From positions 1-59,925 of the forward strand of contig CAJWEM010000005.1 in assembly GCA_913031205.1 (NCBI GenBank): a stretch of DNA of 59,925 nt, in the 5' to 3' direction. This document shows, piece after piece, positions 6,209-54,319 of the stretch; position 1 is the stretch's first letter; each line of letters begins with the position of its first letter. Origin of the DNA: an uncultured Gammaproteobacteria bacterium (GTDB lineage Bacteria > Pseudomonadota > Gammaproteobacteria > Poriferisulfidales > GCA-002705445). Made by a program: the position numbers and the translations under genes. A model generated the notes under the pieces. It did no database searches. It was not told the DNA's origin and worked only from the letters and a program-made list of their open reading frames with translations.

Positions 6209-6279
6209 AGTAGTATTTCTCCATTAATATTAATTGTTTCTATTATAAGATATTATTCTTAATTTCTACAGAGGTGTTT

Positions 6280-6861
6280 ATGTTAGAAGTAGATGATCTT
6301 TCAATTGGAATTCTAGCTGGGGGTAAGGCAACTAGAATGAACAATCAAGATAAAGGTTTAGTAAATCTTAAGGGGAAACCCTTTGTTGAAAGACTAATTG
6401 AAATCATTAAGCCACACACACCAAATATAATTATCAATGCAAATAGAAATATTTCAGAGTATGAAAAGTATAATTATCCTGTGATTAAGGACGAAATGAA
6501 CAATTTTCAGGGCCCGCTATCAGGAATATACTCAATGTTAAAAGCAAGTAAAAACAAATACCTCTTTACATTACCTTGTGATTGCCCAAATTTTAGGTGG
6601 GAGGTTGTCGAAATCTTCATGAAAAATGTCAGTAATAAAGAACTATATATAGCTCATAACCACGAGAGATCGCAGCCAGTTTTTATGCTTATTTCGAAAT
6701 CAAAAATAAATTCCTTACAAAATTTCCTTGAAAATGGTGAAAGAAAAATTGACGCTTGGTATCAACAGAATGATCACGAATATATTTATTTTGAAAAAGA
6801 AAAGCATTTCTTTGATAATATTAATACTTTAGACCAGTTAAAAGAATATAATGAAGAGTAA
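6280..6861 (+). CDS. mobA: Molybdenum cofactor guanylyltransferase
   Basis: Attaches GMP to molybdopterin to form the guanine dinucleotide cofactor used by DMSO-reductase-family enzymes, including most formate dehydrogenases. The 193-aa protein opens with the nucleotidyltransferase signature ILAGGKATRMNNQDKGL, then the conserved GPLSGI and LPCDCPN (metal-binding Asp). A GTG at 6274 is in frame, but GAGG at 6271-6274 is correctly spaced for ATG at 6280, which I prefer. It overlaps mobB by 11 bases. Confidence 0.93.
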   Translation: MLEVDDLSIGILAGGKATRMNNQDKGLVNLKGKPFVERLIEIIKPHTPNIIINANRNISEYEKYNYPVIKDEMNNFQGPLSGIYSMLKASKNKYLFTLPCDCPNFRWEVVEIFMKNVSNKELYIAHNHERSQPVFMLISKSKINSLQNFLENGERKIDAWYQQNDHEYIYFEKEKHFFDNINTLDQLKEYNEE

Positions 6862-7369
6862 AAAAATTATAGGTTTTGCTGCTTTTAGTGGAACAGGCAA
6901 AACAACATTAATAAAAAAAATTGTCAGTATTTTAAGTAAAAAAAAATACACTGTTTCTGTTATAAAACATGCTCATCATAATTTTGACTTAGATCAACCA
7001 GGTAAAGATAGTTACGAAATTAGAAAATCAGGGGCAGAAAATATTTTAATCTCTTCGGAAAAAAGATGGGCATTAATTCATGAAAATAAAAATAACCAAG
7101 AGTTATCTCTAGAAGATCTTTTAAATATTCTAGGAAATATTGACTCTGATATTATTTTAGTTGAAGGTTTTAAAAAAGAGAATTTTCCAAAAATAGAGCT
7201 TTATAGAGAAGAAATAGGAAAGGATATTCTTTTTTATAATGACAAGAACATAGTAGCCTTTGCAACTGACGTAGATATAAATATTGAACAAAATATAGAA
7301 AAGCTTGATATTAACGATCCACAGCAAATCGTTGATTACATAATAAAATTTCTATCTTTAGACAAATAA
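6851..7369 (+). CDS. mobB: Molybdopterin-guanine dinucleotide biosynthesis adaptor MobB
   Basis: GTP-binding partner of MobA. The 172-aa protein has a P-loop (FSGTGKTTL, residues 13-21), the conserved IKHAHHNFDLDQPGKDS block and the later ILVEGFK motif, all typical of MobB. It starts inside the end of mobA, so translation is probably coupled. About 105 bases separate it from gltA, where I find no convincing promoter or terminator. Confidence 0.93.
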   Translation: MKSKKIIGFAAFSGTGKTTLIKKIVSILSKKKYTVSVIKHAHHNFDLDQPGKDSYEIRKSGAENILISSEKRWALIHENKNNQELSLEDLLNILGNIDSDIILVEGFKKENFPKIELYREEIGKDILFYNDKNIVAFATDVDINIEQNIEKLDINDPQQIVDYIIKFLSLDK

Positions 7370-15629: not shown

Positions 15630-17108
15630 TCAACGCATTAAAGGGAATAAAAGAACATCTCGAATAGATGGCGAGTCACTGAGGATCATTACAAGCCTAT
15701 CAATCCCAATACCCTCTCCTGCCGTAGGAGGCATACCATATTCTAGCGCTTCAATGTAATCTTCGTCTAAATACATTGCCTCTTTATCGCCTTTATCCTT
15801 GAGCTCAACTTGTTTTTCAAATCTTAACCTTTGATCGTCAGGATCATTTAATTCAGAAAATCCGTTCGCAATTTCTTTTCCCATAATAAAAAATTCAAAC
15901 CTATCAGCGATTTTCGGATTGTCATCATTTACACGCGCTAAGGGTGAAACTTCTATTGGATATTCAGTAATAAATGTTGGATTTATAAGATTAGCCTCAA
16001 CGTTTTTTTCAAAAATTGCAAAATGCATTTCACCAAGTGATTGATGAATTTCTGTATCGATTTGCTTCGTCTTACAGTATTCTTTCAAGTATTTTTCATT
16101 TAATAAATGATCTTCTTCAAGTTCCTTTGAAAATTTTAAAATTGATTCAGACAGCGTCATTCTCGAAAATGGTTTTGAAAAATCTATGTCGTAATCTTGG
16201 TATTTTAAAATATCTGAATTTTTTACTTCCTTGACAACTTTTTTTAATAATTCTTCCGTTAAATTCATCATATCTATATAATTTGAATATGTTTGATAAA
16301 ACTCAATCATTGTGAATTCAGGATTATGTTTTGAAGAAACACCTTCATTTCTAAAGTTTCTATTAATTTCATAAATTTTGCTAAAACCTCCAACAATTAA
16401 CCTTTTTAAGAAAAGTTCAGGAGCGATTCTCATATATAAATTCATATCTAAAGTATTATGATGTGTCACAAATGGTCTTGCAGTAGCGCCCCCAGGAATT
16501 TTGTGCATCATGGGCGTTTCGACCTCTATATAACCATGATTATCAAAAAAATTTCTTATACTCTTCATAGTTTTGAATCTAATATCAAAGGTTTTTTTTG
16601 TTTCTTCATTGCATATCAGGTCTAAGTAACGCTTTCTGTACTTTATTTCTTGATCTGTAAGGCCGTGGTATTTTTCAGGAAGTGGTCTTAAAGATTTTGT
16701 TACTATGTCAAAGTGTGAGCAATAAATTGTCAGCTCTCCGGTTTTTGTTTTAAACAAATAACCTTCAACATGAACAATATCACCAATGTCAGATTCTTTG
16801 AATAATTGAAAAATATCTTTATCTAGGCTTGTTTTGTCAACGTAAAATTGCAAACTACCAGTTTCATCTTTTAAATTAGCAAAACTAGATTTACCCATTA
16901 CCCTTTTTGTCATCATTCGCCCATTTACAACAAATAATTTTTCTTTATCATCAATTACATCATTTTCTATTGATTTTTTAATAATTGATTCGATTGTATA
17001 ACCTTTAAGAAAATTATTTTTATAGCTATTTCCACTTTCTTTTAGTTTTTGGAGTTTCTTTCTTCTCTCTAAAATGAGTCTGTGCGATTCATCTGTTTTT
17101 TTATTCAT
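15630..17108 (-). CDS. lysS: Lysyl-tRNA synthetase (class II)
   Basis: Loads lysine on tRNA-Lys; about 492 aa, the usual length. The anticodon-binding OB domain is N-terminal, followed by class II motifs: motif 2 around FRNEGVSSKHNPEFTMIEFY and motif 3 GEGIGIDRLVM near the C terminus. ATG at 17108 overlaps the end of prfB and has GGGTG at a suitable distance; an in-frame GTG at 17117 is the alternative. prfB-lysS is a conserved gammaproteobacterial pair. Confidence 0.97.
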   Translation of the reverse strand: MNKKTDESHRLILERRKKLQKLKESGNSYKNNFLKGYTIESIIKKSIENDVIDDKEKLFVVNGRMMTKRVMGKSSFANLKDETGSLQFYVDKTSLDKDIFQLFKESDIGDIVHVEGYLFKTKTGELTIYCSHFDIVTKSLRPLPEKYHGLTDQEIKYRKRYLDLICNEETKKTFDIRFKTMKSIRNFFDNHGYIEVETPMMHKIPGGATARPFVTHHNTLDMNLYMRIAPELFLKRLIVGGFSKIYEINRNFRNEGVSSKHNPEFTMIEFYQTYSNYIDMMNLTEELLKKVVKEVKNSDILKYQDYDIDFSKPFSRMTLSESILKFSKELEEDHLLNEKYLKEYCKTKQIDTEIHQSLGEMHFAIFEKNVEANLINPTFITEYPIEVSPLARVNDDNPKIADRFEFFIMGKEIANGFSELNDPDDQRLRFEKQVELKDKGDKEAMYLDEDYIEALEYGMPPTAGEGIGIDRLVMILSDSPSIRDVLLFPLMR

Positions 17109-18211
17109 TTTTTTCACCCATCTTTAAACTAGCTTCAATAAACATGTCAATATTACCATCTAAAACCGATTGAGTATTGCTTGTTTCAATATTTGTTCTC
17201 AAATCCTTAATTCTTGATTGATCTAATACGTATGATCTTATTTGGCTTCCCCAGCCAATGTCAGCTTTTTGGCTCTCAATATTTTCTTGTTCATTTTTTT
17301 TCTTTTGAATTTCTATTTCGTAAAGCTTTGCTTTTAGTTGCTTTAAAGCTGTTTCTTTATTCTTATGCTGAGATCTCCCATTTTGACACTGAGTAACCAC
17401 ACCAGACTTTAGGTGCGTAATTCTAACAGCAGATTCTGTTTTATTAACATGTTGACCTCCAGCGCCACTTGCCCTAAATACATCAATTCTTAGCTCACTT
17501 GGGTCGACTTCAATTTCAATATCATCATTAATTTCAGGCGTAACAAATATAGATGCAAATGACGTATGTCTTCTGTTTCCTGAATCAAATGGAGACTTGC
17601 GAACCAACCTATGAACACCTGTCTCTGTTTTTAACCATCCAAATGCATATTCGCCATCAAACTTTAATGTTGAGCTTTTAATTCCAGCTACCTCGCCGCT
17701 TGTTATGCTAATTGTTTCCACAGAGAAACTATTTTTCTCTCCCCATCGCAAGTACATTCTTTGAAGCATTTCTGCCCAGTCTTGAGCCTCGGTACCACCT
17801 GAGCCAGCTTGAATATCTAAGTAAGCATTACATTTATCAGATTTTCCTGAAAAAATCTTTAGAAAAGATAACTTTTCGATAGAAACTTTAATTTTTTTAA
17901 TTTCATTATTTAAATATTCAGCAACCTCGTTAGACTGATCCTCGTCATATAAATCTTTAAATTCTTTAATTTGAATAAAGTCTTCATTAATTTTTGAAAA
18001 TTCAGAAATTTCTTTCTCTAAAGAAGATTTTTTCTTTGATAAAGACAAGGATTTATCTCTATCTGACCAAATATTTTCATCTTGAAGCTGTACTTCTAGT
18101 CCTTGAACTTCCTCTTTTTTTGAATCAATGTCAAAGAAACCTCCCAACCTCTAAAATTTCTTTTTCAATATGGGTAATTTGCATATCGAAATCATTTTCA
18201 AGCTTATTCAT
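17101..18211 (-). CDS. prfB: Peptide chain release factor 2, expressed by programmed +1 frameshift
   Basis: RF2 ends translation at UGA and UAA. Reading starts at ATG 18211 (MNKLENDFDMQITHIEKE...), runs 26 codons to CTT, meets TGA at 18131-18133, and must slip forward one base to continue with GAC in the frame that encodes the remaining 343 residues, giving about 369 aa. The SPF tripeptide that recognises UGA/UAA (RKSPFDSGNRRH) and the catalytic GGQ (SGAGGQHVNK) are present. Starting at TTG 18147 would lose the N-terminal helix, so the frameshift reading is preferred. It lies 4 bases after proA and overlaps lysS. Confidence 0.95.
18131..18145 (-). promoter_or_regulatory. prfB programmed +1 frameshift site
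   Basis: On the minus strand the sequence reads GGGAGG TTT CTT TGA C: a Shine-Dalgarno-like GGGAGG at 18140-18145, three spacer bases, the slippery CTT at 18134-18136 and an in-frame TGA at 18131-18133 followed by C. Spacing matches the E. coli site, where low RF2 lets the ribosome slip and so autoregulates RF2 synthesis. Confidence 0.95.
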
Positions 18212-18215
18212 AATA

Positions 18216-19472
18216 TTACCTTATGTTTCCATCGCCAATAACAATATATTTTTCGTTAGTTAAGCCCTCTATTCCTACTGGGCCACGTGCATGAAGTTTA
18301 TTTGTGCTAATGCCAATTTCTGCGCCTAATCCGTACTCGAATCCATCGGCAAAACGTGAGGAAGCATTGTGCATCACTGAGCTTGAATCGACGTTCCTTA
18401 AAAAAGAATTAGCAACTTGATCGTTCTCCGTAACGATAACATCTGTATGACCTGAGCCATATGTTGAAATATGATTAATAGCTCCTGATAAATCTTCTAC
18501 TATTATAATTGAAAGAATAGAATCTAAATATTCAGTTTCCCAATCTTCTTGCGTTGCATCTTTGACAGAATTTATAATTTTTTTTGTTTTTGAGCAGCCT
18601 CTAAGTTCTACTTTTTTCTCAACTAACTTTTCTTCCAATAAAGGAAGGAATTTTTCAGATATATTGGTGTCAACAATAAGAGTTTCCATAGCATTGCACA
18701 CGCCGGTCCTTTGGGTTTTTGAGTTCACTGAAATCTCCAAGGCTTTATTAATATCTGCATCCTCATGAATATAAACATGGCATATACCGTCTAAGTGCTT
18801 CAAAACAGGTATTGATGAAATTTCATCCACTAGCTTAATTAAGTTCTTACCGCCCCTTGGTATAACAATATCGATAGAGTCATTCCTAACTAATAATTCA
18901 TTCACAATTTTTCTGTCTACTTTGTTTATAAGCTGAACGGCATTTGTGTTTACATTATTTTCTTGCAATGCTTTTTTAACACATTTTTCTAGTACAATAT
19001 TTGTTCTGATAGACTCAGACCCTCCCCTCAGAATAATTGAATTACCAGATTTGATGCTAAGAGCAGATGCATCAATTGTAACATTTGGCCTAGATTCGTA
19101 TATCATTGCAATTACTCCTAGAGGCATAGACATCTTGCCGACTTTAATTCCGCTAGGCATCGTTTTTAGTTCTTTTATATCCCCAACAGGATCATCTATA
19201 GCAATTATTTCTACAATACTATCAATCATCGCATCAATTCTAAGATCATTAAGAAGAAGTCTGTCTATGAAGGATTCCGCAAAATTCTCACTTTTTTTAA
19301 GAGCTTCTATATCTATCTTATTCTCTGACTTTATATCTTCTCTGTTCTTCTTAATTTCATTCACTAAATCATTGAGAATTGAATCTTTTTGGGTCTGAGT
19401 AATACAAGAAATTTCACGTGATGATTCACGCGCGAGTAAGCACACATTGTCTACATAGCTATTAATATCCAT
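18216..19472 (-). CDS. proA: Gamma-glutamyl phosphate reductase
   Basis: Second step of proline synthesis: NADPH reduction of glutamyl-5-phosphate. The 418-aa protein is full length and has the catalytic Cys in RTGVCNAMETL, the GGSESIRTN region and the family ending HARGPVGIEGLT. It lies between holA and prfB on one strand; proB is not in the window. Spacing to holA (12 bases) and prfB (4 bases) suggests a shared transcript. Confidence 0.96.
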   Translation of the reverse strand: MDINSYVDNVCLLARESSREISCITQTQKDSILNDLVNEIKKNREDIKSENKIDIEALKKSENFAESFIDRLLLNDLRIDAMIDSIVEIIAIDDPVGDIKELKTMPSGIKVGKMSMPLGVIAMIYESRPNVTIDASALSIKSGNSIILRGGSESIRTNIVLEKCVKKALQENNVNTNAVQLINKVDRKIVNELLVRNDSIDIVIPRGGKNLIKLVDEISSIPVLKHLDGICHVYIHEDADINKALEISVNSKTQRTGVCNAMETLIVDTNISEKFLPLLEEKLVEKKVELRGCSKTKKIINSVKDATQEDWETEYLDSILSIIIVEDLSGAINHISTYGSGHTDVIVTENDQVANSFLRNVDSSSVMHNASSRFADGFEYGLGAEIGISTNKLHARGPVGIEGLTNEKYIVIGDGNIR

Positions 19473-19484
19473 AAATATATTATA

Positions 19485-20513
19485 TTAAGTATATTTAATT
19501 ACTGAAAGTTTATTTTTTGCTAGAGAAACTGATAAATCATAAATTGAATCCCATATATTTCCATATAATGCACCTTTTGATTGCATATCAATTCTCACTA
19601 AAACACCTATATATGACTCAATTTTCTTAATAGATAGTTTATCAATAGAATTCGATACCAGATTTTTTCGCTCGTAAGGCCAAATATTTTTTAAGATCTC
19701 CTGTTTCGATTTTCCCTCATTTATTGACTCAATATAAAATAGAATCGATCTTAAAGTTCTTATAAAAGACCATATTATGTATTGAGTAGGATAATCATTA
19801 TTTTTTAAAAAACTATAACAACTATTAACTTTTTTTAAATTACCATCTATTGCATAATCAACTAAATTATTTGCTACATAGTCAGTATTTTCTGATAGGA
19901 TTTTATTCAAAAAATTTTGGTCAACCTCCCTTTTATCGCCTAACATCAAATCTATTTTAATTAAAGTCTGACTTGCAGAGACCATATTTCCCTCAAACAT
20001 ATCAGCAATGTAATTTATACAATTTTTATCAATTTTATAATTGTATTTTTTAATCAAAATACATATTTCGTCTATCATATTTTTTCTTGTCATTGGGAAA
20101 ATTCTTATTAACCCAACATTATCATTTTTCAATCCTAAATATTTTTTTCTAAATTCAGTAGCTTTTAATTCAGGAAGTCTAAAAATTAAAATAATGTCTT
20201 GTGAAATTGAATCTGTGCACTCTAGAATATTTTTTTCAGCTTGTATTCCAACAGATTTTGTGAGGAATCTAAGCTCTATTATTTTTTTCTCAGAAAATAG
20301 AGATAAATTTGAATTAGTGGTTTCAAAACTTTTCCAGTCAAATGATTTTTCAACATACAGAATCTCGTGTTCCTCGAAACCGGTCTGTTGCGCTTTATTA
20401 ATAATTTTTTGCGTACAGGTGTCCTCTTGGTATGATTCATTTCCTGTAATAATATAGATTGGATGTATTTTTTTATCTAACTCGTTAGTTAATTGATTGT
20501 AATATATTTGCAT
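19485..20513 (-). CDS. holA: DNA polymerase III delta subunit
   Basis: Clamp-loader wrench that opens the beta clamp. The 342-aa protein is full length with the N-terminal IYIITGNESYQEDTC segment and the conserved IFRLPELKATEFRKKY region; the ATPase-like fold lacks a functional P-loop, as expected for delta. In E. coli holA directly follows leuS-lptE; here a two-gene insertion in the opposite direction separates it from lptE. Confidence 0.9.
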   Translation of the reverse strand: MQIYYNQLTNELDKKIHPIYIITGNESYQEDTCTQKIINKAQQTGFEEHEILYVEKSFDWKSFETTNSNLSLFSEKKIIELRFLTKSVGIQAEKNILECTDSISQDIILIFRLPELKATEFRKKYLGLKNDNVGLIRIFPMTRKNMIDEICILIKKYNYKIDKNCINYIADMFEGNMVSASQTLIKIDLMLGDKREVDQNFLNKILSENTDYVANNLVDYAIDGNLKKVNSCYSFLKNNDYPTQYIIWSFIRTLRSILFYIESINEGKSKQEILKNIWPYERKNLVSNSIDKLSIKKIESYIGVLVRIDMQSKGALYGNIWDSIYDLSVSLAKNKLSVIKYT

Positions 20514-20558
20514 TTTATTTATATTACATTATTAAATTATAAACTTAAATTTTTATTT

Positions 20559-21440
20559 ATGAATATTAACAAAAAGAATATTGGCTTTATTGGTACTGGA
20601 ATAATTGGATATCCAATGGCAAAAAATCTTATTAGATGCAAGTTTTCTACATTTGCTTATGTTCGTAATAAAAGAAAGGTTAAAGATCTTAATAATATTG
20701 GCTGTCATGTTATTAATAAACTTGATGAATTTTATCATAAGATCGATATCTTAATACTTGCTGTATCTGACACAAAAGATGTCAAAGAGATATTGGTTGG
20801 GAAAAATGGATTAGTTAGATTTAAAAATAAACCAAATATTATTATTGATATGAGCACAATATGTCCTATCGAGACAATTTCCTTATCAAAAAAACTAGCT
20901 AAACAAAAAATTTCACTTATTGATGCGCCTGTATCTGGTGGAGAAATTGGGGCAATTAAAGGAAATCTATCAATAATGGTTGGCGGAAAGAAAGAAGCAG
21001 TAAAAAAAGTTATGCCGATTTTAAAAGTTCTCGGCGAGAAAATTACACATGTTGGTAATTCAGGTTCTGGGCAGGTTGCCAAAGCATGTAACCAACTTAT
21101 AGTTGGACAAACAATAAATGCTGTAAGTGAAGCATTCATATTAGCTGATAAATTCAACGTTAATAAAAAAAATATTCGTGAAGCATTACTTGGTGGGTTT
21201 GCTAATAGTAAAATTCTTGAAGTTCATGGTCAAAGAATGTTGGAAAATAAATATAAACCAGGTTTTAAAACAAAACTGCATGCAAAAGATATGAGAATTG
21301 TTAAAAATATTACAAAAAAGAAAAAATTAAATTTATCTGGTGTTAATATTGTTCACAAATTTATGCAAATAACAAATAAAATAGGTCATGGTGAAAAAGA
21401 CTCGTCTGCTTATTACTTATCTCTAAAAAGTAAAAAATAA
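20559..21440 (+). CDS. 3-hydroxyisobutyrate dehydrogenase-family oxidoreductase
   Basis: NAD(P)-dependent beta-hydroxyacid dehydrogenase of 293 aa. The dinucleotide loop is GFIGTGIIGYPMA (near residue 8), the substrate motif is DAPVSGGEIGA, and the catalytic Lys lies in GQVAKACNQ. Family members include tartronate semialdehyde reductase, 3-hydroxyisobutyrate dehydrogenase and succinic semialdehyde reductases; no other degradation gene is nearby to choose between them. ATG at 20559 fits the family; an in-frame ATG at 20493 would run over the holA start. It abuts the following membrane-protein gene. Confidence 0.9.
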   Translation: MNINKKNIGFIGTGIIGYPMAKNLIRCKFSTFAYVRNKRKVKDLNNIGCHVINKLDEFYHKIDILILAVSDTKDVKEILVGKNGLVRFKNKPNIIIDMSTICPIETISLSKKLAKQKISLIDAPVSGGEIGAIKGNLSIMVGGKKEAVKKVMPILKVLGEKITHVGNSGSGQVAKACNQLIVGQTINAVSEAFILADKFNVNKKNIREALLGGFANSKILEVHGQRMLENKYKPGFKTKLHAKDMRIVKNITKKKKLNLSGVNIVHKFMQITNKIGHGEKDSSAYYLSLKSKK

Positions 21441-22147
21441 TGCTAATTTTAAAATCATTACTGTTTGGGATGTATTTTATAAAAATTTCTTATAGAAATT
21501 ATCTCCCTCTTTTATTTTTTTTACTTTTATTTAATTACATAGTTCAAAATATAAATAATCCTTTATTAATATTCTTGTCTTTTATACTTTATTTGGTTAT
21601 ATCTTCTCCAATTTGTGTCAACATATATAGAAGCATAATTTTAGAAAAGCCACTTGGAAATCACTACTTACAATTTTTATACGAAGAATACACAAAACTG
21701 TTTATTAAAAAGCTATTTGTTTTAATTTCAGCAATAATTGGAATTTATATTATTCATATAATGATCCTTTCTCCCTTTATACCACAAGATATTTCAAAAA
21801 TGACAATTTTTTTATACGTGCTTTTTCTATATATGATTTATATTTACACAAGACTATTTTTTATTTTGCCAGCAGCAGCATTAGGGAAATCTTATAGTTT
21901 TAAAGAATGTTATTTTATGACCAAAGGGAATTCTATCAAAATATTTTTATACTATATAGCATTAGTGATACCCTATGTTATTCTAAATAATTATATATCA
22001 GATTTATTTTATAGCAGCAAAGACTACGTTGGTTTAGTATTAGGAATTTCATTTCAAATGATATTTATTGTGTTAAGCACATCACTAGTTGCATACCTAT
22101 ATAAAGGTATTATAGACTCAGACCCTTCCCTCAGAATAAAAGATTAA
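21440..22147 (+). CDS. Unknown integral membrane protein
   Basis: A 235-aa, very hydrophobic protein with about six predicted transmembrane segments and few charges: ten or so N-terminal residues, hydrophobic blocks near 20-38, 38-60, 90-112, 120-142, 165-185 and 198-222, then a polar tail SDPSLRIKD. I recognise no family. The KPLGNHYLQFLYEEYTKLFIKK loop and an AALGKSYSFKECYFMTKGN loop are the only strongly polar parts. The start overlaps the stop of the dehydrogenase gene by one base, so the two are probably translated together. Base composition is lower in G+C than in most neighbours. Confidence 0.75.
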   Translation: MLILKSLLFGMYFIKISYRNYLPLLFFLLLFNYIVQNINNPLLIFLSFILYLVISSPICVNIYRSIILEKPLGNHYLQFLYEEYTKLFIKKLFVLISAIIGIYIIHIMILSPFIPQDISKMTIFLYVLFLYMIYIYTRLFFILPAAALGKSYSFKECYFMTKGNSIKIFLYYIALVIPYVILNNYISDLFYSSKDYVGLVLGISFQMIFIVLSTSLVAYLYKGIIDSDPSLRIKD

Positions 22148-22158
22148 TCTAGTAAAAT

Positions 22159-22632
22159 CTAAATTTTACTCCTAACAAAATTAATAGCCTGGATTTCTAA
22201 ATATTTCTTTATATCATTTTTTATTGTATTTTCCTCGCTTTCAGAGCTATTAATACTAGATGAGGAGAATTTGTGATCTTTTGATAAAGAGAAAATTTTA
22301 TTCCTAAATAATGTTGATCCATCTTTATCTTCAAGAGTTATCAAGATCGTTCCAGTTATTGTAAATTCATTTTCAGTAGCATTACTTGTAACCGACGTTG
22401 TTTCTTTTGTATAGTTTGGGCCTTCTATGGAAATACTATACATGAACTCATTATTATTAATTTTAAACCCAGCATTAATGAAAGATTGCTTAAAATTTTG
22501 ATTAGAGAGTATTTTGATAACCGCAACTTTTCCTTGGTTTTCACCAATGGTTTCAAGCCCACCAAGTTTATAACCGCAGCTAGCAAGAAAAATAAACGAA
22601 ATACAATAACTAAATATTTTAAAATTATTCAT
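22159..22632 (-). CDS. lptE: LPS-assembly lipoprotein LptE
   Basis: Outer-membrane lipoprotein that plugs LptD and helps deliver lipopolysaccharide to the cell surface. The 157-aa protein has a short signal peptide and lipobox FLASC (Cys19), followed by GYKLGG, typical of LptE. Sequence beyond this is weakly conserved, so the call rests also on position: it overlaps the leuS stop by 4 bases, as leuS-lptE does in many Gammaproteobacteria. Confidence 0.87.
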   Translation of the reverse strand: MNNFKIFSYCISFIFLASCGYKLGGLETIGENQGKVAVIKILSNQNFKQSFINAGFKINNNEFMYSISIEGPNYTKETTSVTSNATENEFTITGTILITLEDKDGSTLFRNKIFSLSKDHKFSSSSINSSESEENTIKNDIKKYLEIQAINFVRSKI

Positions 22633-25043
22633 ACCACTATATTAACAAGTTTGTCTTGAATATATATTATTTTTTTTATTTTTTTATTATCTGTATATTT
22701 TTTAATTTCATCTAATGATAATATTATATTTTCTATTTCTTCTTTTGATATACCAGTATTAACTTCAATTTTTTTTCGAACTTTACCATTAATCTGAACA
22801 ACCACCAATGAAATATCACTTACTAAAAATTCTTTATTTGCTTTTGGCCAACTTATTTTTTCTTTCATGTTGGTAATATTTAATTCTTTTGAAATTTCTT
22901 GGCATATATGGGGCGTTATTGGATTTAAAATAAGAATTATTTTTTCGTAAGATTCTTTAAGTATTTTTATACTTATATTATTGGTCTCTAAATGTTTTGA
23001 AATGTTATTAAGTAACTCCATACAGGTTGAAACTATCGTATTTAAGCTTAGTCTTTTACCATAATCTTCGGTAACCTTTGCAATGACTTGATTTGTCATA
23101 ATTTGGATTTTTTTTTCTTCTTTGTTATCTATGTTTGTAACAGATTTCTCAGAATTTTTTATTTTATAGCCAACTGACCAAATTTTATTAAGAAATCTAT
23201 GCGCGCCTTCAACACCATTCTCAGACCATTCTAATGAATTTTCTATTGGCGCTGCAAAAATAACAAATAGTCTTACGGTATCGGCCCCATACTTTTCTAT
23301 TAAATCTTCAGGATTTATTACATTACCTTTTGATTTTGACATTTTTGAGCCATCTTTTAAAACCATACCTTGTGTTACTAAAGACTTAAAAGGCTCATTT
23401 GATTTAACTAAACCCTCGTCTCTAAGTAACTTATGAAAGAAACGCGCATATAAAAGATGGAGTACTGCATGCTCTATACCACCAACGTATATATCAACTG
23501 GCATCCAATAATCTGCTTCTTTGCCGACCATCTGTTTACTATTGTCTGGCGAACAAAATCTTGATTGGTACCAGCTAGATTCAAAAAATGTATCTAACGT
23601 ATCGGTTTCTCTTATAGCTTTTAAGCCAGTTTTTTTACATTTTGTATGTTTCCAGCTTGAATGGTTATCCAAAGGATTGCCTGTTTTTGAAAAATCCACG
23701 TCTTCAGGAAGCTCAATTGGCAATTCGTCAAGGTCAACTGGGATAATTTCGCCATCTTCTCTATAAATAATTGGGATTGGACATCCCCAATATCTTTGTC
23801 TAGAAATTCCCCAATCTCTTAACCTAAAATTTTTCTTTGCCTGGCCAATATTATTTTTTTCGATAAATTCAATAATAGATTTTGATGCAGAGGTATTCTC
23901 TAAACCATTAAATTCACTTGAATTTATGATATAACCTCTCCCAGTATATACTTCTTCATTAGAAGCATCTTCGTTTTCTATTACTTTTATAATTTCTAGG
24001 CTGTATTTTTTAGCAAAATCGAAATCTCTTTGGTCATGGGCTGGTACGCCCATTACTGCTCCTGTTCCATACCCAGTTAAAACGTAGTTTGATACCCAAA
24101 TTGGAATTTTTTTATTGTTAAGTGGATGAATCGCATGAAGACCGGTAAAAATACCGTTTATTTTTTTATCTGTCTTATCATGAGAATCCTTTTCGTTGAT
24201 AATTTTTTTTGCAAATTCTTTTAGCTCTAATGATAAATTATCAATTAATTGATGATCTGCTGCGATAGCAAGAAATGTAACTCCAAATATTGTGTCAGGG
24301 CGAGTAGTAAAAACTTTAATAATATCATTTGATTCTGTTAAAAAATCAAATTCAGCACCATTTGATTCACCAATCCAGTTTTTTTGCATAGTAATTACGT
24401 TATCAGGCCAAAAGTCGGTTAATTCATCAAGATCATTCAATAATTCTTCAGAGTATGATGATGTCTTTAAAAACCATTGCGATATTTTCTTTTTTTCTAC
24501 TTCAGCTCCTGATCTCCAGCCTTTACCATCAATAACTTGTTCATTTGCTAAAACTGTTTTGTCAATGGGATCCCAATTTACTAAAGATTCTTTTTTGTAA
24601 ACGAGCTTTTTTTCGAAAAGTTTTATAAAAAACCATTGTTCCCATTTATAATAGTCTTTTGAGCAGGTTGATATTTCCCTATCCCAATCATAACTTAAAC
24701 CTAATTTCATAAGTTGATTTCTCATATTCTCAATATTTGAAGATGTCCATTCCAGAGGAGATAGGTTATTCTGCATAGCTGCATTTTCGGCAGGTAAGCC
24801 AAAAGCATCCCATCCGATTGGGTGAAGAACGTTTTCTCCAAGCATACGATGAAATCTTGCTATAACATCGCTAATTGTATAGTTTCTGACGTGTCCAATA
24901 TGAAGATTACCGCTTGGGTAAGGGAACATTGATAAGCAATAAAACTTTTTCTCCGAAGATACATCTGCCCTAAAGGTTTTATTGGATATCCATTCTTTTT
25001 GAACTTTTTCTTCAATATTTTTTGGATTGTAAATTTCCTGCAT
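22629..25043 (-). CDS. leuS: Leucyl-tRNA synthetase
   Basis: Class I synthetase of 804 aa, slightly shorter than E. coli LeuRS (860). Motif HIGH appears as GNLHIGHVRNY near residue 45, KMSKS as DGSKMSKSKGN in the C-terminal half, and the CP1 editing domain includes TTRPDTIFGVT and GTGAVMGVPAHDQRD. The C-terminal domain is present. It is divergent from nhaA and overlaps lptE. Confidence 0.97.
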   Translation of the reverse strand: MQEIYNPKNIEEKVQKEWISNKTFRADVSSEKKFYCLSMFPYPSGNLHIGHVRNYTISDVIARFHRMLGENVLHPIGWDAFGLPAENAAMQNNLSPLEWTSSNIENMRNQLMKLGLSYDWDREISTCSKDYYKWEQWFFIKLFEKKLVYKKESLVNWDPIDKTVLANEQVIDGKGWRSGAEVEKKKISQWFLKTSSYSEELLNDLDELTDFWPDNVITMQKNWIGESNGAEFDFLTESNDIIKVFTTRPDTIFGVTFLAIAADHQLIDNLSLELKEFAKKIINEKDSHDKTDKKINGIFTGLHAIHPLNNKKIPIWVSNYVLTGYGTGAVMGVPAHDQRDFDFAKKYSLEIIKVIENEDASNEEVYTGRGYIINSSEFNGLENTSASKSIIEFIEKNNIGQAKKNFRLRDWGISRQRYWGCPIPIIYREDGEIIPVDLDELPIELPEDVDFSKTGNPLDNHSSWKHTKCKKTGLKAIRETDTLDTFFESSWYQSRFCSPDNSKQMVGKEADYWMPVDIYVGGIEHAVLHLLYARFFHKLLRDEGLVKSNEPFKSLVTQGMVLKDGSKMSKSKGNVINPEDLIEKYGADTVRLFVIFAAPIENSLEWSENGVEGAHRFLNKIWSVGYKIKNSEKSVTNIDNKEEKKIQIMTNQVIAKVTEDYGKRLSLNTIVSTCMELLNNISKHLETNNISIKILKESYEKIILILNPITPHICQEISKELNITNMKEKISWPKANKEFLVSDISLVVVQINGKVRKKIEVNTGISKEEIENIILSLDEIKKYTDNKKIKKIIYIQDKLVNIVV

Positions 25044-27384: not shown

Positions 27385-28734
27385 TTACCACGTAAAGCTA
27401 CCTTTTGAAAAAAATTTCAAAAATATTGATACTTTTTCTAAACTTTCAATATATTCATCCTCGGGGTTAGAGTCATAAACAATTCCTCCACCAGCCGCAA
27501 AATTTAACTTTCCATTATTTATCATTATTGTTCTAATGCATATGTTAGTATCCATATTATTGTTTTTATCAAGATAGCCAATTGAACCGCAGTATACACC
27601 GCGGGGTCTCTTCTCAAGCTCGCTTATTATCTCCATAGATCGTATTTTTGGAGCTCCTGTAATAGATCCGCCTGGAAAACATGCTTCTAATATATCTATT
27701 GATTTTGTTTTATTGTTTAGCTTACCTTTAATTGTGCTTACCATATGATGAACTGAGGCATAAGTTTCAATATCAAATAGCTTTTCTACTTTTACGCTAT
27801 TTAAATCACAGCATTTACTTAAATCATTTCTCAATAAATCAACAATCATTAAATTTTCTGATAAATTTTTTTCATCATTTTGCAGTATATCTTTTTGCTT
27901 ATTATCTTTAATTTTATCCTGTAATCTCTTTAAGGTTCCCTTAATAGGTTTTGTCTCAACGATATTATCTTTTACAGAAATAAATCTTTCTGGAGAAGAG
28001 CTTATTATAGAATTTTCACCAAATTTGAAAAATGAAGAATAAGGAGCAGGGTTTTTATTTCTTATATCTTTATAAAGTGACCATGTATCTCCAATAAAAT
28101 CTACTTCAAAATTTTGAGAATAATTTACCTGATAACAGTCACCCTCTGATATATATTTCTTGATTTTTTTTACATCTTTTATATATTGATCTTTAGATGT
28201 TAGCTGATTTAAATTAGAAAAAGAATAATCCAATTTTTTAACTTTAATTTTTATATCCAAATTAACAATATCAATAATTTTTTTAATAAAAGAATTCATT
28301 TTCTCATAAGTTAGCCAGGCGCTTTTTTCAACATGATCTATTACTATTGCCCACTCATATAAGCCCACAGCAATATCTGGGAATCTTCCATCAATGTATG
28401 AATCGGTATAATTAAATGCGTCGTATCCAAAATATCCCATAAAACCAGAGTTAAAAGGCAGATCTGATGAGTGTTGAATATTGGAATATTTATAATATTT
28501 TTTGATTACTGTTAAAGGATCTTCCTTATAACTTGATTTAATACCGTCTTTTTCAACAATAATATTATTTTTTTTTGAAATTATTTTTATAACAGGATCA
28601 CAAGAAAGAATGCAATATCGCCCTTCACTTCCTTTGTCGAAGCAACTATCTAAAAAAATAAACCATTCGTTATTTTTTAATATATCAGCGTAATAACAAG
28701 AGTTTTTATGATAATTTATTTTAATTTTATTCAT
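27385..28734 (-). CDS. pabB: Aminodeoxychorismate synthase component I
   Basis: Makes 4-amino-4-deoxychorismate, the p-aminobenzoate precursor. The 449-aa chorismate-binding protein has ETKPIKGT, whose Lys distinguishes PabB from TrpE (PIAGT), and the C-terminal PGGSITGAPKIRSMEII and GGGIVYDS motifs. p-Aminobenzoate feeds both folate and tetrahydromethanopterin. The start overlaps the preceding MfnF-like gene by 8 bases, so the gene is translated as the end of the C1-cofactor unit. pabA is not seen here; pabC is at 33.0-33.9 kb. Confidence 0.93.
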   Translation of the reverse strand: MNKIKINYHKNSCYYADILKNNEWFIFLDSCFDKGSEGRYCILSCDPVIKIISKKNNIIVEKDGIKSSYKEDPLTVIKKYYKYSNIQHSSDLPFNSGFMGYFGYDAFNYTDSYIDGRFPDIAVGLYEWAIVIDHVEKSAWLTYEKMNSFIKKIIDIVNLDIKIKVKKLDYSFSNLNQLTSKDQYIKDVKKIKKYISEGDCYQVNYSQNFEVDFIGDTWSLYKDIRNKNPAPYSSFFKFGENSIISSSPERFISVKDNIVETKPIKGTLKRLQDKIKDNKQKDILQNDEKNLSENLMIVDLLRNDLSKCCDLNSVKVEKLFDIETYASVHHMVSTIKGKLNNKTKSIDILEACFPGGSITGAPKIRSMEIISELEKRPRGVYCGSIGYLDKNNNMDTNICIRTIMINNGKLNFAAGGGIVYDSNPEDEYIESLEKVSIFLKFFSKGSFTW

Positions 28735-29770
28735 TAATTTTTCCGAAATAATTTAAAACAACCAAAGCTGAGGTAAAATGTGAGTAAATATCAAATTGCT
28801 TTTTCTTATTATTAACTATCAATTTATCTATTTTCTCAATTGGAATAAATTTTATTTTGTTATTATGACAAATTTCTTGGATTAGACTTCTTCCTTCACC
28901 AACAGACGTGACTACTAACTCCTCATTTAATAATTTTTCTATATTACTGATGTATTGAACTATGTATTTATTGAATTTTGATTTTAAATTTTTCGCGCAT
29001 GATTGAATTTTCTCTTTATCTTCATTTTTATAATCTTTGCCAATAAGCCTTGAGATTCTATTTAGACTATTAATCTCAGTATAAGGCAAATTGTCAGATC
29101 CAATGTGATTATTTTTCTCAAATTTTATATCATTCAGTATACAAAAAATATCTCCAGATGTTGCATAAACTTCATTGATAATTGGAATTTCTCTTTCATC
29201 AAATTTAGTGGTATTAGCAAACATAGGAACAGGAGTTCTTATCGCTCCTTGATATAGTAATGTCCTGTTTGATAAACGTTTAAAATCATTTATATTTTCA
29301 CTAACACTCATATTCCTATAAATAAAATCAGTTGTTGTAGAGCCTATATCAATGATCAAATTTATTTTATTTTGTCTGTTTAAGTAATTTAATGTAAGAA
29401 TCCAATTCGTTGAATACATACTTATGGGATTTTTTGCAGCCTCCTTAATATTTACATATTTATTATTATTTGAATAATATTTTTTTTCGCCATTTAAGTG
29501 TACATCGCATAAATTAATAATTGATGTTACCCCATGGCTTCTTGTTTCAAAGTTATCACATGCTTCAGCGGTAAATGTTATAAAATGATAATTATCCGAA
29601 CCAGAATATTTTTTTGAAATTTTTTCAATAAACTTTTCAAAAATGGACAAGCTATTCCAGATATTAATATTTTTAAAATAAAAATCAGATATCTCATAGT
29701 TTGAGTTTAAGACTGTTATTTTTGTATTAGCACCGCCAATATCCCAACCAAAATATATACTTTCACTCAT
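28727..29770 (-). CDS. H4MPT-linked C1-transfer protein, MfnF-like (hydantoinase/oxoprolinase-type fold)
   Basis: A 347-aa ASKHA/actin-fold protein. WDIGGANTK (residues 9-17), TFTAEACDNF (65-74), STNWILT (120-126), DIGSTTTD (141-148), YQGAIRTPV (173-181) and YATSGDIFCILND (202-214) match the family found in methylotroph C1-transfer clusters; archaeal homologues (MfnF) couple glutamyl-tyramine to the furan in methanofuran synthesis. It overlaps both neighbours: the ATP-grasp gene (4 bases) and pabB (8 bases). Known bacterial relatives occur almost only with H4MPT/methylofuran genes, so I infer a role in methylofuran-type cofactor synthesis. It is not a hydantoinase or a sugar kinase. Confidence 0.87.
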   Translation of the reverse strand: MSESIYFGWDIGGANTKITVLNSNYEISDFYFKNINIWNSLSIFEKFIEKISKKYSGSDNYHFITFTAEACDNFETRSHGVTSIINLCDVHLNGEKKYYSNNNKYVNIKEAAKNPISMYSTNWILTLNYLNRQNKINLIIDIGSTTTDFIYRNMSVSENINDFKRLSNRTLLYQGAIRTPVPMFANTTKFDEREIPIINEVYATSGDIFCILNDIKFEKNNHIGSDNLPYTEINSLNRISRLIGKDYKNEDKEKIQSCAKNLKSKFNKYIVQYISNIEKLLNEELVVTSVGEGRSLIQEICHNNKIKFIPIEKIDKLIVNNKKKQFDIYSHFTSALVVLNYFGKINE

Positions 29771-30741
29771 GTTATTAGGTTCTTAGAAAATAATTTGTTG
29801 TTATTAATATTAAAATCAAAGTTTATATTATTATAAAGTTGCATAGGATTAAAACCTAAAGATTCATGTAAGAATGAATATGATGTGGTTAGTCTAGGAT
29901 TAATTTCTAAAAAAAATATTTCGTTGTTATCAGTCATTATAAAATCAACACCAAAGAAACCGCTTAAACCCTCGAAGTTTAAGAGAATACTATTTATAAT
30001 ATTATCAAAATCTAAAATAAGTTTATTATACTTTCCAATAAACATTTCCTTTAAGTAGATTTCATGTTCTGATTTTCTTTGATAAATCTGCTCATTAATA
30101 GATAATATTCTATAAAATCCTTTAAATGCAAAAATATTTACTCCTATGGTAACTCCACTAATAAATTTTTGAAAATAATGTTTTTTTGTTAGCTTATTTA
30201 TATTTCTTTCCAAGTCTTCCCTATTCTTAAAAATAAATAAATCTTCAGCGCCTATACCGTCAATTTTTTTTGAAATTATTAATTCATCGGATTCTATTTC
30301 AATATAATTTTGATGCATTGGTAGTGTATTTGACAATATTTTTTTAAATATTTTATTTGTGTCTGATTTATTGGTAGTAATTTTTATCACATTACTTGCA
30401 CTATTAAGATGTGAAATATTATTTTCTTCCATTTTTCTTACAATTTCATACAAGATATAATTCTCCTCAGGGGCAAGAACTAATATTTTGTCGTAATCAT
30501 TCTTATGATTTATAAAATCGTCTATTAAGTCAGATTCATGGTTTCTTTCTAAAATACTCGTATTTTCAAAAAAATTCTTATTTTTTTTGTCAACTAACAG
30601 TGTTATCTTAGAACTTGGATAATTTTTAGATAAATCTTTAATTATGCTATGTATAATTAACTTCGCTTCATTAATTAGTAAAAGAGGTGTGTTTTCATCT
30701 ATCTCTTCTCCTAAAATATACTCGTAAACTAGAATATTCAT
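29767..30741 (-). CDS. ATP-grasp protein of the C1-cofactor cluster (MfnD-like)
   Basis: A 324-aa ATP-grasp ligase. The ATP-binding KKIDGIGAEDLF (158-169) and the metal/substrate block FLEINPRLTTSY (277-288) are clear; the latter is characteristic of the archaeal tyramine-glutamate ligase MfnD and its methylotroph homologues. I infer that it adds glutamate to an amine in methylofuran-like cofactor synthesis. It is first in the operon ATP-grasp, MfnF-like, pabB. Its start is only 5 bases from the start of the divergent HisA-like gene. Confidence 0.85.
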   Translation of the reverse strand: MNILVYEYILGEEIDENTPLLLINEAKLIIHSIIKDLSKNYPSSKITLLVDKKNKNFFENTSILERNHESDLIDDFINHKNDYDKILVLAPEENYILYEIVRKMEENNISHLNSASNVIKITTNKSDTNKIFKKILSNTLPMHQNYIEIESDELIISKKIDGIGAEDLFIFKNREDLERNINKLTKKHYFQKFISGVTIGVNIFAFKGFYRILSINEQIYQRKSEHEIYLKEMFIGKYNKLILDFDNIINSILLNFEGLSGFFGVDFIMTDNNEIFFLEINPRLTTSYSFLHESLGFNPMQLYNNINFDFNINNNKLFSKNLIT

Positions 30742-30746
30742 TTTAT

Positions 30747-31418
30747 ATGAAACTTATACCTGCGATTGATTTAAAAAATAGTAAAGTTGTTACTCCAAAT
30801 AGCAGTGATAGGTCTAATTATCAAGAAATATCACTCAAAAAATCACCTACGTCAGACCCGATACAATTTATTAGATATTTGTTATCGATAAATAATTTTA
30901 ACACAATATATCTTGCTGATTTAGATTCTATTGAAGATTTTAAAGAAAATAATATTTTATTAATTGAAATATTAAATAATTACAGAGATATTCATTTTAT
31001 TGTAGATAATGGGATGAGGAAATTATCACAATTGAGCTATTTAAATAATAATAATTTTACGCAAATTATAGCAACAGAGACATTTATAGATTATGAAAAA
31101 CTATACAAAGCATCAAATATTAACTATATATTATCGCTCGATATTAAAAATAAAAAAATTCTCACAGAAACAGAAGAATATCGATCTCTTAAGCCAAAAA
31201 AAACTATATGTATGAACCTTGATGATGTCGGTAAAAGAAATGGATTAAATATAGAAAATATTGAGTTATGTAAAAATATTTTTCCGGAAACAAAACTCAT
31301 CTATTCTGGCGGAGTGGGAACCCAGGAAGACCTAATTAGTTTGAACAATATGAATATAAAAGAAGTTATTCTTTTAACTTGTATACTAAATAAAGAAATT
31401 ACATATAGTGAATCATAA
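30747..31418 (+). CDS. HisA-related TIM-barrel protein of the C1-cofactor set
   Basis: A 223-aa TIM barrel. The start MKLIPAIDLKN is as in HisA, followed by SDPIQFIRYLL, IYLADLDSIED and a C-terminal phosphate-site motif IYSGGVGTQEDL. This is the HisA-related group (COG1411 as I remember it) that accompanies H4MPT genes in methylotrophs and methanogens. No other his genes are present and it diverges from the rest of the cofactor genes, so a histidine role is unlikely. ATG 30747 is chosen over 30687, which would lie inside the ATP-grasp gene and add a non-homologous leader. Reaction unknown. Confidence 0.82.
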   Translation: MKLIPAIDLKNSKVVTPNSSDRSNYQEISLKKSPTSDPIQFIRYLLSINNFNTIYLADLDSIEDFKENNILLIEILNNYRDIHFIVDNGMRKLSQLSYLNNNNFTQIIATETFIDYEKLYKASNINYILSLDIKNKKILTETEEYRSLKPKKTICMNLDDVGKRNGLNIENIELCKNIFPETKLIYSGGVGTQEDLISLNNMNIKEVILLTCILNKEITYSES

Positions 31419-32050: not shown

Positions 32051-33052
32051 TTATTTTTTTTGATACTTATTTACTGCTTTAACATGATCTTGATAATTTT
32101 TTGAAAAAACATGTTTTCCATTCTTATCTGCAACAAAGTATAAGTAGTCGCTAATAATTGGTTTGCTCGCTGCTTTAATTGAGCTTTCTCCCGGTGAGCA
32201 TATAGGAGTTTTAGGCAAACCTTTTATCTTGTATGTATTATATTCGTTTTTCGTATTTAAATCTTTTTTTGTAATATTTCCTTTATAGTTTTTCATGCCA
32301 TAAATTACAGTAGGGTCAGCTTGTAACCTCATATTTTTATTTAGTCTATTTATAAAAACACTAGCAATTATTGGTTTTTCCAGTTTATTCGCCGTTTCTT
32401 TTTCAATTATCGAAGCCATTATTAGCATTTCATAAGGTGATTTGTATGGCAGAGAAAAATCCCTTTTACGCCAGTAATACAGAAGAACATTTTCCATTTT
32501 TTTTTGGCAAATTTTCAAAAAATTTTCAAAGGTAGTTCCCGATGAAAATTTATATGTGTCAGGAAAACATAAGCCTTCTAGTGAAGGATAATTAACTTGA
32601 GATAAGTAGGTTTTTTCATATTTAGCATCAAATTCAACACTATCTATACTATTGTTTTTATATAGGATATTTTTAATTTCATTATAAGTTGTACCTTCGA
32701 TAATAGTAATATTTTCCTGTATTAAATTTCCATTTACAAGTTTTACTAGAAAGCTATATTCAGAGTCATTTTTTTGTACTCTATATCTGCCGTTCAGAAA
32801 AACAGGATTATAGTTGTATAAATAAGCAAGAACCTTGAACCTAAATATTGAATCAATATAGCCTTTTTTGTGTAAATTAAAAATTGTATTACTTACTGCA
32901 TCTCCCTCCTTAACAATAAATATCTTTGAGCTATTATTTTTATATACACTATTTTTAAATGAAAAATTTAAATAGGATAAAAATAATAATATTAATAATG
33001 AAATTACAAAAAAAATAAACTTTAATATTTTTAAATTTTGGAATTTTATCAT
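32051..33052 (-). CDS. mltG: Endolytic murein transglycosylase MltG
   Basis: Inner-membrane enzyme that cuts nascent glycan strands and helps end their elongation. The 333-aa protein has one N-terminal transmembrane segment (about 9-29), a LysM-like region, and the YceG domain with catalytic Glu in ASIIEKETA and the family block RLQADPTVIYGM and IKGLPKTPICSPG. It overlaps pabC by 4 bases, as in the E. coli cluster. Confidence 0.94.
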   Translation of the reverse strand: MIKFQNLKILKFIFFVISLLILLFLSYLNFSFKNSVYKNNSSKIFIVKEGDAVSNTIFNLHKKGYIDSIFRFKVLAYLYNYNPVFLNGRYRVQKNDSEYSFLVKLVNGNLIQENITIIEGTTYNEIKNILYKNNSIDSVEFDAKYEKTYLSQVNYPSLEGLCFPDTYKFSSGTTFENFLKICQKKMENVLLYYWRKRDFSLPYKSPYEMLIMASIIEKETANKLEKPIIASVFINRLNKNMRLQADPTVIYGMKNYKGNITKKDLNTKNEYNTYKIKGLPKTPICSPGESSIKAASKPIISDYLYFVADKNGKHVFSKNYQDHVKAVNKYQKK

Positions 33053-33852
33053 TCTTCTAATAATACACGAAGTTTTTCAACTAAATTATTTTTTTTATAA
33101 CTAAATCCATTTATTGACTTTATCTTCCATACTTGTCTTATAGAATTACAAAAAAAAGCAGCATCAAACTGATTTATACTATTTTTTTTTATATCTAAGG
33201 ACTTGATAGTAATTTTATTTTTTTTTAGTGTATTTATAATTACACTTTTCATAACACCATCAACACCGATATTATTTAGTTTTGGCGTATAAAATTTATT
33301 TTTCTTTATGAAAAATATATTACTTGCCGTACCCTCAATAATATTATCTTTATGATCACATAAAATTACTTCAGGATAATTTTTTGAAATTTCACTTGTT
33401 GCAATAATATTATCAATTTTATTGCAATGCTTTATGTTGTCTATATTTGTGTTTTGAAATAGTTTTGTTTTTGCAAATTTTGTTTTTATCCCATGTGTGT
33501 AATAGCTACTTGGATATTCTGGTATGCGAGTTGTTGAAATAATAATATTAGGTTTTTTTGCTAATTCAATATTGTATCCCCTTTTTTTTGCAAAACCTCG
33601 AGATACATTTATACATAAAACACAATTTATTTGATCTTTTAAAGCTTTTCTTATTTGAATTTCAAGCGCGTTGACATCAAAGTTTTTGATTTTGATATTC
33701 TTAATCCCTTTATTAAGTCTGTTTAAGTGAAGTTTTAAATTTATAGGTTTTTTTTTCTTAACCAAAATTGTTTCAAAAACCGCATCGCCATACAAAAAAC
33801 CTCTATCAAATATACTAATACTTGATCCAGCTTTACCATTTATTAAATTCAT
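33049..33852 (-). CDS. pabC: Aminodeoxychorismate lyase
   Basis: PLP enzyme that releases pyruvate from aminodeoxychorismate to give p-aminobenzoate. The 267-aa fold-type IV protein has FDRGFLYGDAVFET near the N terminus, the PLP Lys in NIKHCNKIDN (near 144) and EGTASNIFF. It is the partner of pabB 4 kb downstream on the same strand. Sequence alone does not exclude D-amino-acid or branched-chain transaminase relatives, but its position between fabF and mltG is the classic pabC slot. Confidence 0.92.
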   Translation of the reverse strand: MNLINGKAGSSISIFDRGFLYGDAVFETILVKKKKPINLKLHLNRLNKGIKNIKIKNFDVNALEIQIRKALKDQINCVLCINVSRGFAKKRGYNIELAKKPNIIISTTRIPEYPSSYYTHGIKTKFAKTKLFQNTNIDNIKHCNKIDNIIATSEISKNYPEVILCDHKDNIIEGTASNIFFIKKNKFYTPKLNNIGVDGVMKSVIINTLKKNKITIKSLDIKKNSINQFDAAFFCNSIRQVWKIKSINGFSYKKNNLVEKLRVLLEE

Positions 33853-52565: not shown

Positions 52566-53822
52566 ATGAAAAAAAATAAAAAAATTTATAGCTGCATGGA
52601 TGATTACGATCCAAACTCAATATTAATTGAAAATGCTTTAAAAGAAATAAAAAAAATCTCAAAAAAACTGAGATCATACGAGTATGTTTCTCTTTCTGAC
52701 TCATATAATCGAGTCATTTACGAGAATATTAAATCAAAACTAAAAGTGCCTAACTATGATAATTCAGCTATGGACGGTTATGCACTTAATTTAAAAGATC
52801 TTAAAAATAATAATATTTTTAAAGTATGCGGAACGTCGTTAGCAGGATCCCCTTTTAAGAAAAAATTAGGTATTAAAGAATGTGTCAAAATTATGACGGG
52901 AGCTGTTATTCCAAAAGGGACAAATGCTGTAATAATGAAAGAAGAAATAGAAAATCTTAGTAAGGATAAAATTAAAGTTTTATCAAAAAAAGTTCGTGTT
53001 AATCAAAATATTAGATTCTCTGGTGAAGACATTCAAAAAAATAGGATAATTCTTAAAAAAGATCAAATTATCAATTCTGCATCGATGGGTTTATTAGCGT
53101 CACAAGGTATAAACAAAATAAAAGTATACAGGAATCCGAAAGTATCATTTTTTACGTCCGGTGATGAAGTTGTACAAATTGATAAAAAATTACCGTATGG
53201 AAAAGTTCATGATAGTAATAGATATACTCTTATAGGAATGTTAAAAAAAAATAATGTCTCATTTATTGATCTAGGTCATGCTCAAGATAATCCAAAGGAT
53301 ATTAAAAAAAAATTTGCTGAAGCAATAAAGAAAACAGATATAGTTATAACTACTGGTGGAGTTTCTGTTGGAGATGCTGATTATATTAAGGATGTAGTAA
53401 ATAGCTTGGGTGATATTAATTTTTGGAAAGTGGCAGTAAAACCTGGACGCCCATTAGCATTTGGGAAAATAAAAAATACTATTTTCTTTGGATTGCCAGG
53501 TAATCCTGTTTCGGTAATGGTAACATTTCTTCTATTTGTATTGCCGAGTATTAAACTATTATCAAGTGAAAATCATAACTTAACTTTCGAGACTGCTTTA
53601 ATAAAAACAAACTTAAAAAAAAGAAAAGGCAGAGCTGAATTTCAAAGAGGAATTCTTACAATTAAAAATAATAAAAAATATGTACATTCGGTTGGCGAGC
53701 AAGGTTCTGGAATATTAAGCTCCATGGCTAAAGCGAACTGCTTGATTTATCTGCCAGTTGAACAAGGTGCAGTAAAAATTGATGATTATGTAAAAGTATT
53801 AGTATTTAATAATTATATTTAA
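52566..53822 (+). CDS. moeA: Molybdopterin molybdenumtransferase MoeA
   Basis: Inserts molybdate into adenylated molybdopterin. The 418-aa protein has the N-terminal PNYDNSAMDGYAL block, TGAVIPKGTNAVI, the MPT-binding TTGGVSVGDADYI (near 274) and GLPGNPVSVMVTF. It ends in a TTAA palindrome shared with the stop codon of moaE. Confidence 0.96.
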   Translation: MKKNKKIYSCMDDYDPNSILIENALKEIKKISKKLRSYEYVSLSDSYNRVIYENIKSKLKVPNYDNSAMDGYALNLKDLKNNNIFKVCGTSLAGSPFKKKLGIKECVKIMTGAVIPKGTNAVIMKEEIENLSKDKIKVLSKKVRVNQNIRFSGEDIQKNRIILKKDQIINSASMGLLASQGINKIKVYRNPKVSFFTSGDEVVQIDKKLPYGKVHDSNRYTLIGMLKKNNVSFIDLGHAQDNPKDIKKKFAEAIKKTDIVITTGGVSVGDADYIKDVVNSLGDINFWKVAVKPGRPLAFGKIKNTIFFGLPGNPVSVMVTFLLFVLPSIKLLSSENHNLTFETALIKTNLKKRKGRAEFQRGILTIKNNKKYVHSVGEQGSGILSSMAKANCLIYLPVEQGAVKIDDYVKVLVFNNYI

Positions 53823-54256: not shown

Positions 54257-54319
54257 ATTCTATATTATATAAAATTTAACTGTTTTGTATATTTTAACAA
54301 TAAAGAATATAATTTACAC

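Follow-up and report, generated by a model that had tools for sequence, protein, structure and literature searches.

Genes of the archaeal methanofuran and tetrahydromethanopterin (H4MPT) type lie next to pabB in this DNA, which raises the question of what the locus makes and whether pabB belongs to it. The window, the whole 59,925-nucleotide stretch analysed, is contig C5 of an uncultured gammaproteobacterial assembly of 908 kb in 30 contigs (estimated completeness 93.6%). The ORF list placed three minus-strand genes and a divergent HisA-like gene within 27385-31418, with the motifs, the overlaps and the orientation that the sequence-only reading had described:

27385-28734, minus strand: pabB, aminodeoxychorismate synthase component I, 449 aa, above the TIGR00553 cut-off
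28727-29770, minus strand: mfnF-like gene (orf9), 347 aa, with the motifs DIGSTTTD and YATSGDIFCILND
29767-30741, minus strand: mfnD-like ATP-grasp ligase gene (orf1), 324 aa, with the motif EINPRLTTSY
30747-31418, plus strand: orf17, HisA-like TIM barrel, divergent from orf1, matching PF00977 and TIGR00734
31421-33852, minus strand: tmk, mltG and pabC (pabC at 33049-33852), presumably, as named from sequence and from the usual order fabF-pabC-mltG-tmk

From this gene content and order, we consider it highly probable that the window genes are the orf17/orf1-orf9-pabB end of a bacterial H4MPT-methylofuran island, detached from the remainder, and that they serve to make carriers for C1 oxidation.

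The genes of the module are tightly packed. orf1 and orf9 overlap by 4 bases (29767-29770), and orf9 and pabB by 8 bases (28727-28734). The start codon of orf17 is most likely the ATG at 30747 (MKLIPAIDL), the GTG at 30687 being a mechanical ORF start only. With this ATG, orf17 and orf1 start only 5 bases apart in opposite directions (30739-30749), so that no promoter or ribosome site fits between them. Every genus-mate measured had a gap of 5 or 6 bases here, as had two genomes of family f2; the gap was 0 bases in the family's other genus and 18 in family f3. We observed that tmk, mltG and pabC were conserved neighbours within the family, where the module sits between fabF-pabC-mltG-tmk and AI-2E/nhaA/leuS genes. 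Elsewhere in the window, ORFs at 6274-7369 and 52566-55836 resembled mobA, mobB, moeA, moaE, moaB and moaA by eye, molybdenum-cofactor genes of the kind required for a molybdenum formate dehydrogenase.

Profile searches returned the protein families expected from the sequence, though three of the four proteins scored under the curated cut-offs. PabB passed its cut-off (TIGR00553, 379.4 bits; cut-off 328.4). The MfnF-like protein fell below both of its models (TIGR03123, 199.5 bits, cut-off 244.1; NF040623, 144.9 bits, cut-off 520), whereas MfnF from order relatives in families f2 and f3 and from three same-class genomes passed the TIGR03123 cut-off with 288-330 bits. The window MfnF was only 19-25% identical to copies outside its family. 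Residues G8, D10, G12, G13, D141, G143, T145, T146 and D148 were invariant across 13 sequences. Judged by conserved position and residues, Orf9 appears MfnF-like, rather than a certified equivalog.

The ATP-grasp protein matched PF02655 (80.7 bits), and its best NCBIfam match was MfnD (NF040722, 82.9 bits; cut-off of 400 missed). MyfA and MyfB have been reported to add glutamates to methylofuran, and several strains to carry a second protein closer to MfnD, Orf1 (PMC8141765). In a midpoint-rooted FastTree phylogeny of 95 proteins, the window protein grouped among 74 Orf1/MfnD-type tips (support 0.86), apart from 21 MyfA tips (support 1.0). The tree rules out its assignment as MyfA/OrfY, and the MyfA of this genome is a separate gene on contig C14. 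Deletion of orf1 in Methylobacillus flagellatus raised formaldehyde sensitivity (PMC8141765).

The remainder of an H4MPT island was found on C14, where one strand carried purL-mptG-mtdB-myfA-mch-myfB-orf7-fae-PTPS-like-holB. Pfam matches on this island were Mpt_N, MCH and Fae. Fae scored 215.6 bits against PF08714 and had two copies in the genome; MptG (beta-RFAP synthase) scored 196.9 bits against TIGR00144, passing the cut-off of 113.5. The second Fae homologue (L002:1474-2022), which starts MSDRIVMRVAESLVAGGPPGTAAEPEVVIGELDG, stands alone on contig C3, away from other C1 genes. holB directly follows the island (L003:11350-13403), while in the window tmk lies next to the detached module. In Escherichia coli, tmk adjoins holB. 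The island may once have lain between tmk and holB and later been split. Between fae and holB lies a gene for a 381-aa protein (L003:11350-12495) with a PTPS/QueD-like domain at its C-terminal end and no Pfam match in its first 230 residues. It was ruled out as orf17, since Orf17 is described as HisA-like (PMC8141765).

Contig C6 carried genes for 5-formyl-H4F cyclo-ligase, FhcD and FolD, followed by serine-cycle-type genes (L138:9265-17151, about 15764-23650 of the contig). The latter were read as serine-glyoxylate aminotransferase, malyl-CoA lyase, malate-CoA ligase subunits and hydroxypyruvate reductase. Because the best NCBIfam match of the aminotransferase was the related BhcA, under cut-off, the assignment to a serine cycle draws on the whole C6 gene set. 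No PQQ alcohol dehydrogenase was found, so the assembled part gives no obvious sign of methanol, oxidised by such an enzyme, as the C1 source. No PF00282 tyrosine decarboxylase, the MfnA candidate, was found in the genome; the product is likely a tyrosine-type methylofuran.

We also assessed the supply of p-aminobenzoate. Only two chorismate-binding enzymes (PF00425) were found in the genome, the window PabB and one in the trp cluster adjoining trpG/trpD-like genes, leaving the window gene as the sole pabB. FolP is also encoded. With a single PabB and with both FolP and MptG present, folate and dH4MPT must both draw on the p-aminobenzoate that PabB makes. The proposal that pabB is partly dedicated to a C1 carrier thus holds in the form of a shared supply. 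The inference of a C1-oxidising cell also stood, with the C14 island, FhcD and serine-cycle genes in the same assembly. Further H4MPT and methylofuran genes, on which that inference depended, were found elsewhere in the genome: fae, mptG, mtdB, myfA, mch, myfB and orf7. Of the Fhc genes, FhcD was found and FhcA was not. With such genes present, and with the proteins in the expected families, these data support the sequence-only reading.

The module was conserved in relatives. MfnF was present in 10/11 genomes of the genus, including this one (the single exception is just 79% complete). The only further genus of the family has it too, as do all eight genomes from two sister families within the order. 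mfnD-mfnF-pabB was intact in 21/21 relatives read, and 20 of these had the divergent HisA-like gene beside it; the exception, G047, had no adjacent HisA-like match. In three genomes of the same class outside the order (G021, G030 and G047), mfnD-mfnF-pabB was contiguous with mch-myfB-orf7-fae. The same run was found in named methylotrophs, methanotrophs among them, including Methylobacillus flagellatus (L113), Methylomonas (L053), Methylohalobius (L103), Methylopumilus, Methyloprofundus and others. Shared by 20/21 relatives and many named methylotrophs, the four-gene arrangement is far from chance. Downstream of pabB in G021 come a kinase-like ORF, which looks MfnE-like by eye, and then a gene for a PF00282 decarboxylase (L030:6297-8092), which could plausibly be the tyrosine decarboxylase MfnA, encoded within the island. 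The close relatives are metagenome-assembled genomes of uncultured Gammaproteobacteria, and their isolate names suggest marine metagenomes.

Three other explanations were weighed against this reading. The HisA-like gene could encode the phosphoribosyl isomerase with which the cell makes histidine, as its PF00977 match (75 bits) and its retained PAIDL and SLD aspartates would allow. Its best match, however, was TIGR00734 (hisAF_rel, 88 bits; cut-off 179.9), and it missed the cut-off of the HisA profile (TIGR00007, 65.7 bits; cut-off 229). The genuine hisA and hisF form a pair on contig C2, beside a hisH-like ORF, and scored 280-284 bits, against 71 for the window gene, in which VDNG replaces HisA's GGG phosphate loop. 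In a Methylorubrum strain whose genome includes hisA and hisF as well, the Orf17 orthologue (PF00977) is required for methylofuran and not for dH4MPT (PMC8141765). A role in histidine synthesis can practically be dismissed. With hisA and hisF proper located on C2, the window gene is Orf17, a PF00977 homologue beside orf1/fae and distinct from both. The VDNG loop may point to a substrate with one phosphate rather than two. For MfnF, MfnD and Orf17, the kind of family is clear, with the exact activities left uncertified by scores below the curated NCBIfam cut-offs.

Those low scores, with the low identity of MfnF to copies outside its family and the failure to find FhcA in the assembly, would also fit remnants or repurposed genes in a streamlined genome that has lost methylofuran synthesis, its MfnF and MfnD having drifted to another ligase function. 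Against this, FhcA was present in 11/11 relatives searched, four of them from the same genus, the catalytic-type residues of MfnF were invariant, and MfnF was kept throughout the genus save in the one 79%-complete genome. We therefore regard decay or repurposing as very improbable. The relatives' genes also led us to read the apparent absence of FhcA, FhcB and FhcC as most likely an assembly gap. A somewhat stronger case can be made for pabB lying beside the methylofuran genes by chance, as a folate gene unconnected in function with dH4MPT: folate requires the single PabB anyway, given FolP, and many Burkholderia-type loci (Burkholderia, Paraburkholderia, Caballeronia) carry mfnD-mfnF without pabB. 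Yet many unrelated lineages have pabB right after mfnF, the two genes overlapping or closely spaced. Of 80 named loci drawn from the genome collection, 74 had room for the count, and pabB lay directly downstream of mfnF in at least 27 of these. The true number may be higher, as the distance rule misses GC-rich loci with long mechanical ORFs (e.g. Thiobacillus, L094). MptG is described as using p-aminobenzoate (PMC6787355), and the literature groups pabB with H4MPT genes (PMC4109929, PMC3615186). Chance placement of pabB is thus unlikely.

As part of a detached H4MPT-methylofuran island, the window genes can be assigned reactions by analogy with studied homologues. Orf1, a predicted tyrosine/tyramine-glutamate ligase of the MfnD type, would ligate glutamate to tyrosine or tyramine. 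The MfnF-like Orf9 is predicted to join furan pyrophosphate to this glutamyl-tyrosine or glutamyl-tyramine unit, giving methylofuran-Glu1, which MyfA and MyfB from C14 would lengthen. Orf17 would act in an early step of methylofuran synthesis. PabB, with a glutamine amidotransferase partner and with PabC for the lyase step, would yield p-aminobenzoate, to be condensed with PRPP by MptG for dH4MPT and taken by FolP for folate. Methylofuran and dH4MPT would then serve Fae, MtdB, Mch and Fhc in C1 oxidation, feeding a serine cycle.

The only FhcD in this assembly, encoded at L138:9901-10818, was a divergent second type (FhcD2). FhcD was present in 12/12 genomes examined and FhcA in 11/12, with this assembly the exception. 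All nine order genomes examined carried FhcD2, and eight of them carried an ordinary FhcD as well. The trio cyclo-ligase-FhcD2-FolD was found in 8/8 order relatives read, from three families (L181-L186, L190, L191), and in family f1 it heads the serine-cycle-type operon. No PF01268 formate-H4F ligase was found in the nine order genomes, bar three weak partial matches at 19-23 bits, of which the one in this genome sits within an ORF read as a Mrp-type ATPase; strong PF01268 matches were present in 3/3 genomes outside the order.

Within the order, FhcD2 proteins were 72-99% identical to the copy in this genome, and 36-40% identical to ordinary FhcD. Across the f1-f2 split, FhcD2 was more conserved (72-75% identity) than ordinary FhcD (52%). 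It retained the glutamate aligned with Glu245 of Methanopyrus Ftr. FhcD2 scored higher with archaeal Ftr (221 bits) than with Methylorubrum extorquens FhcD (162 bits), whereas the ordinary FhcD of the genus (L187:10775-11659) showed the opposite ranking (283 and 299 bits, respectively). At a strict threshold, FhcD2 was found in no other genome of an even sample of 398 from the phylum; the one other match scored 210 bits, which falls within the scores of ordinary FhcD.

These observations are compatible with a role for methylofuran in assimilation as well as oxidation. We think it quite possible, short of probable, that FhcD2 transfers a formyl group to or from N5 of H4F, with methylofuran (or dH4MPT) as the other carrier, and so replaces formate-H4F ligase; the acceptor, the direction and the replacement of the ligase are all inferred. 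Ftr formylates the N5 of its pterin, which would explain a 5-formyl-H4F cyclo-ligase next to FhcD2. After such a transfer, the cyclo-ligase and FolD could give methylene-H4F for serine, and C1 units would reach biomass without free formate. The reverse direction, in which H4F-bound C1 units are oxidised through methylofuran, is equally plausible. If true, transfer by FhcD2 would directly link the methylofuran/H4MPT and folate C1 pools, a departure from the textbook serine cycle with formate as the branch point. No such bypass was found among the titles and abstracts listed in literature searches of openly accessible papers.

The link between pabB and the carrier genes is real, though it had been described before. 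The order orf17, orf1, orf9, pabB appears in a gene list for Methylophilaceae H4MPT islands (PMC4109929), and PMC3615186, citing work from 2004-2005, describes pabB as a common companion of H4MPT synthesis in methylotrophs. The window piece itself is ordinary, and our data confirm p-aminobenzoate supply as belonging to the H4MPT island. What is new is the split island in a streamlined genome of ~1 Mb, conserved across a whole order. The gammaproteobacteria of this order, small in genome and apparently marine, seem to retain the complete H4MPT-methylofuran route, unlike the small-genome marine Methylophilaceae, reported to be without it (PMC4109929).

Compared with Methylorubrum extorquens, homologues of Orf17, Orf9, MyfA and MyfB are common to both, whereas the MfnD/Orf1 homologue present here has no counterpart in that strain (PMC8141765). 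MfnD- and MfnF-type enzymes are shared with the archaeal MfnA-MfnF methanofuran synthesis of Methanocaldococcus jannaschii, at low identity; here the search for a PF00282 MfnA candidate was negative, and bacterial-type MyfA/MyfB ligases for building the tail are present. The 'archaeal-like' H4MPT/methylofuran island of Methylophilaceae, as in Methylobacillus flagellatus, has orf17 divergent from orf1-orf9-pabB in identical order (PMC4109929). In the present genome, by contrast, the module is detached between tmk and AI-2E/nhaA/leuS, with mptG-mtdB-myfA-mch-myfB-orf7-fae on another contig, and serine-cycle-type genes are present where the Methylophilaceae use the RuMP cycle for C1 assimilation.
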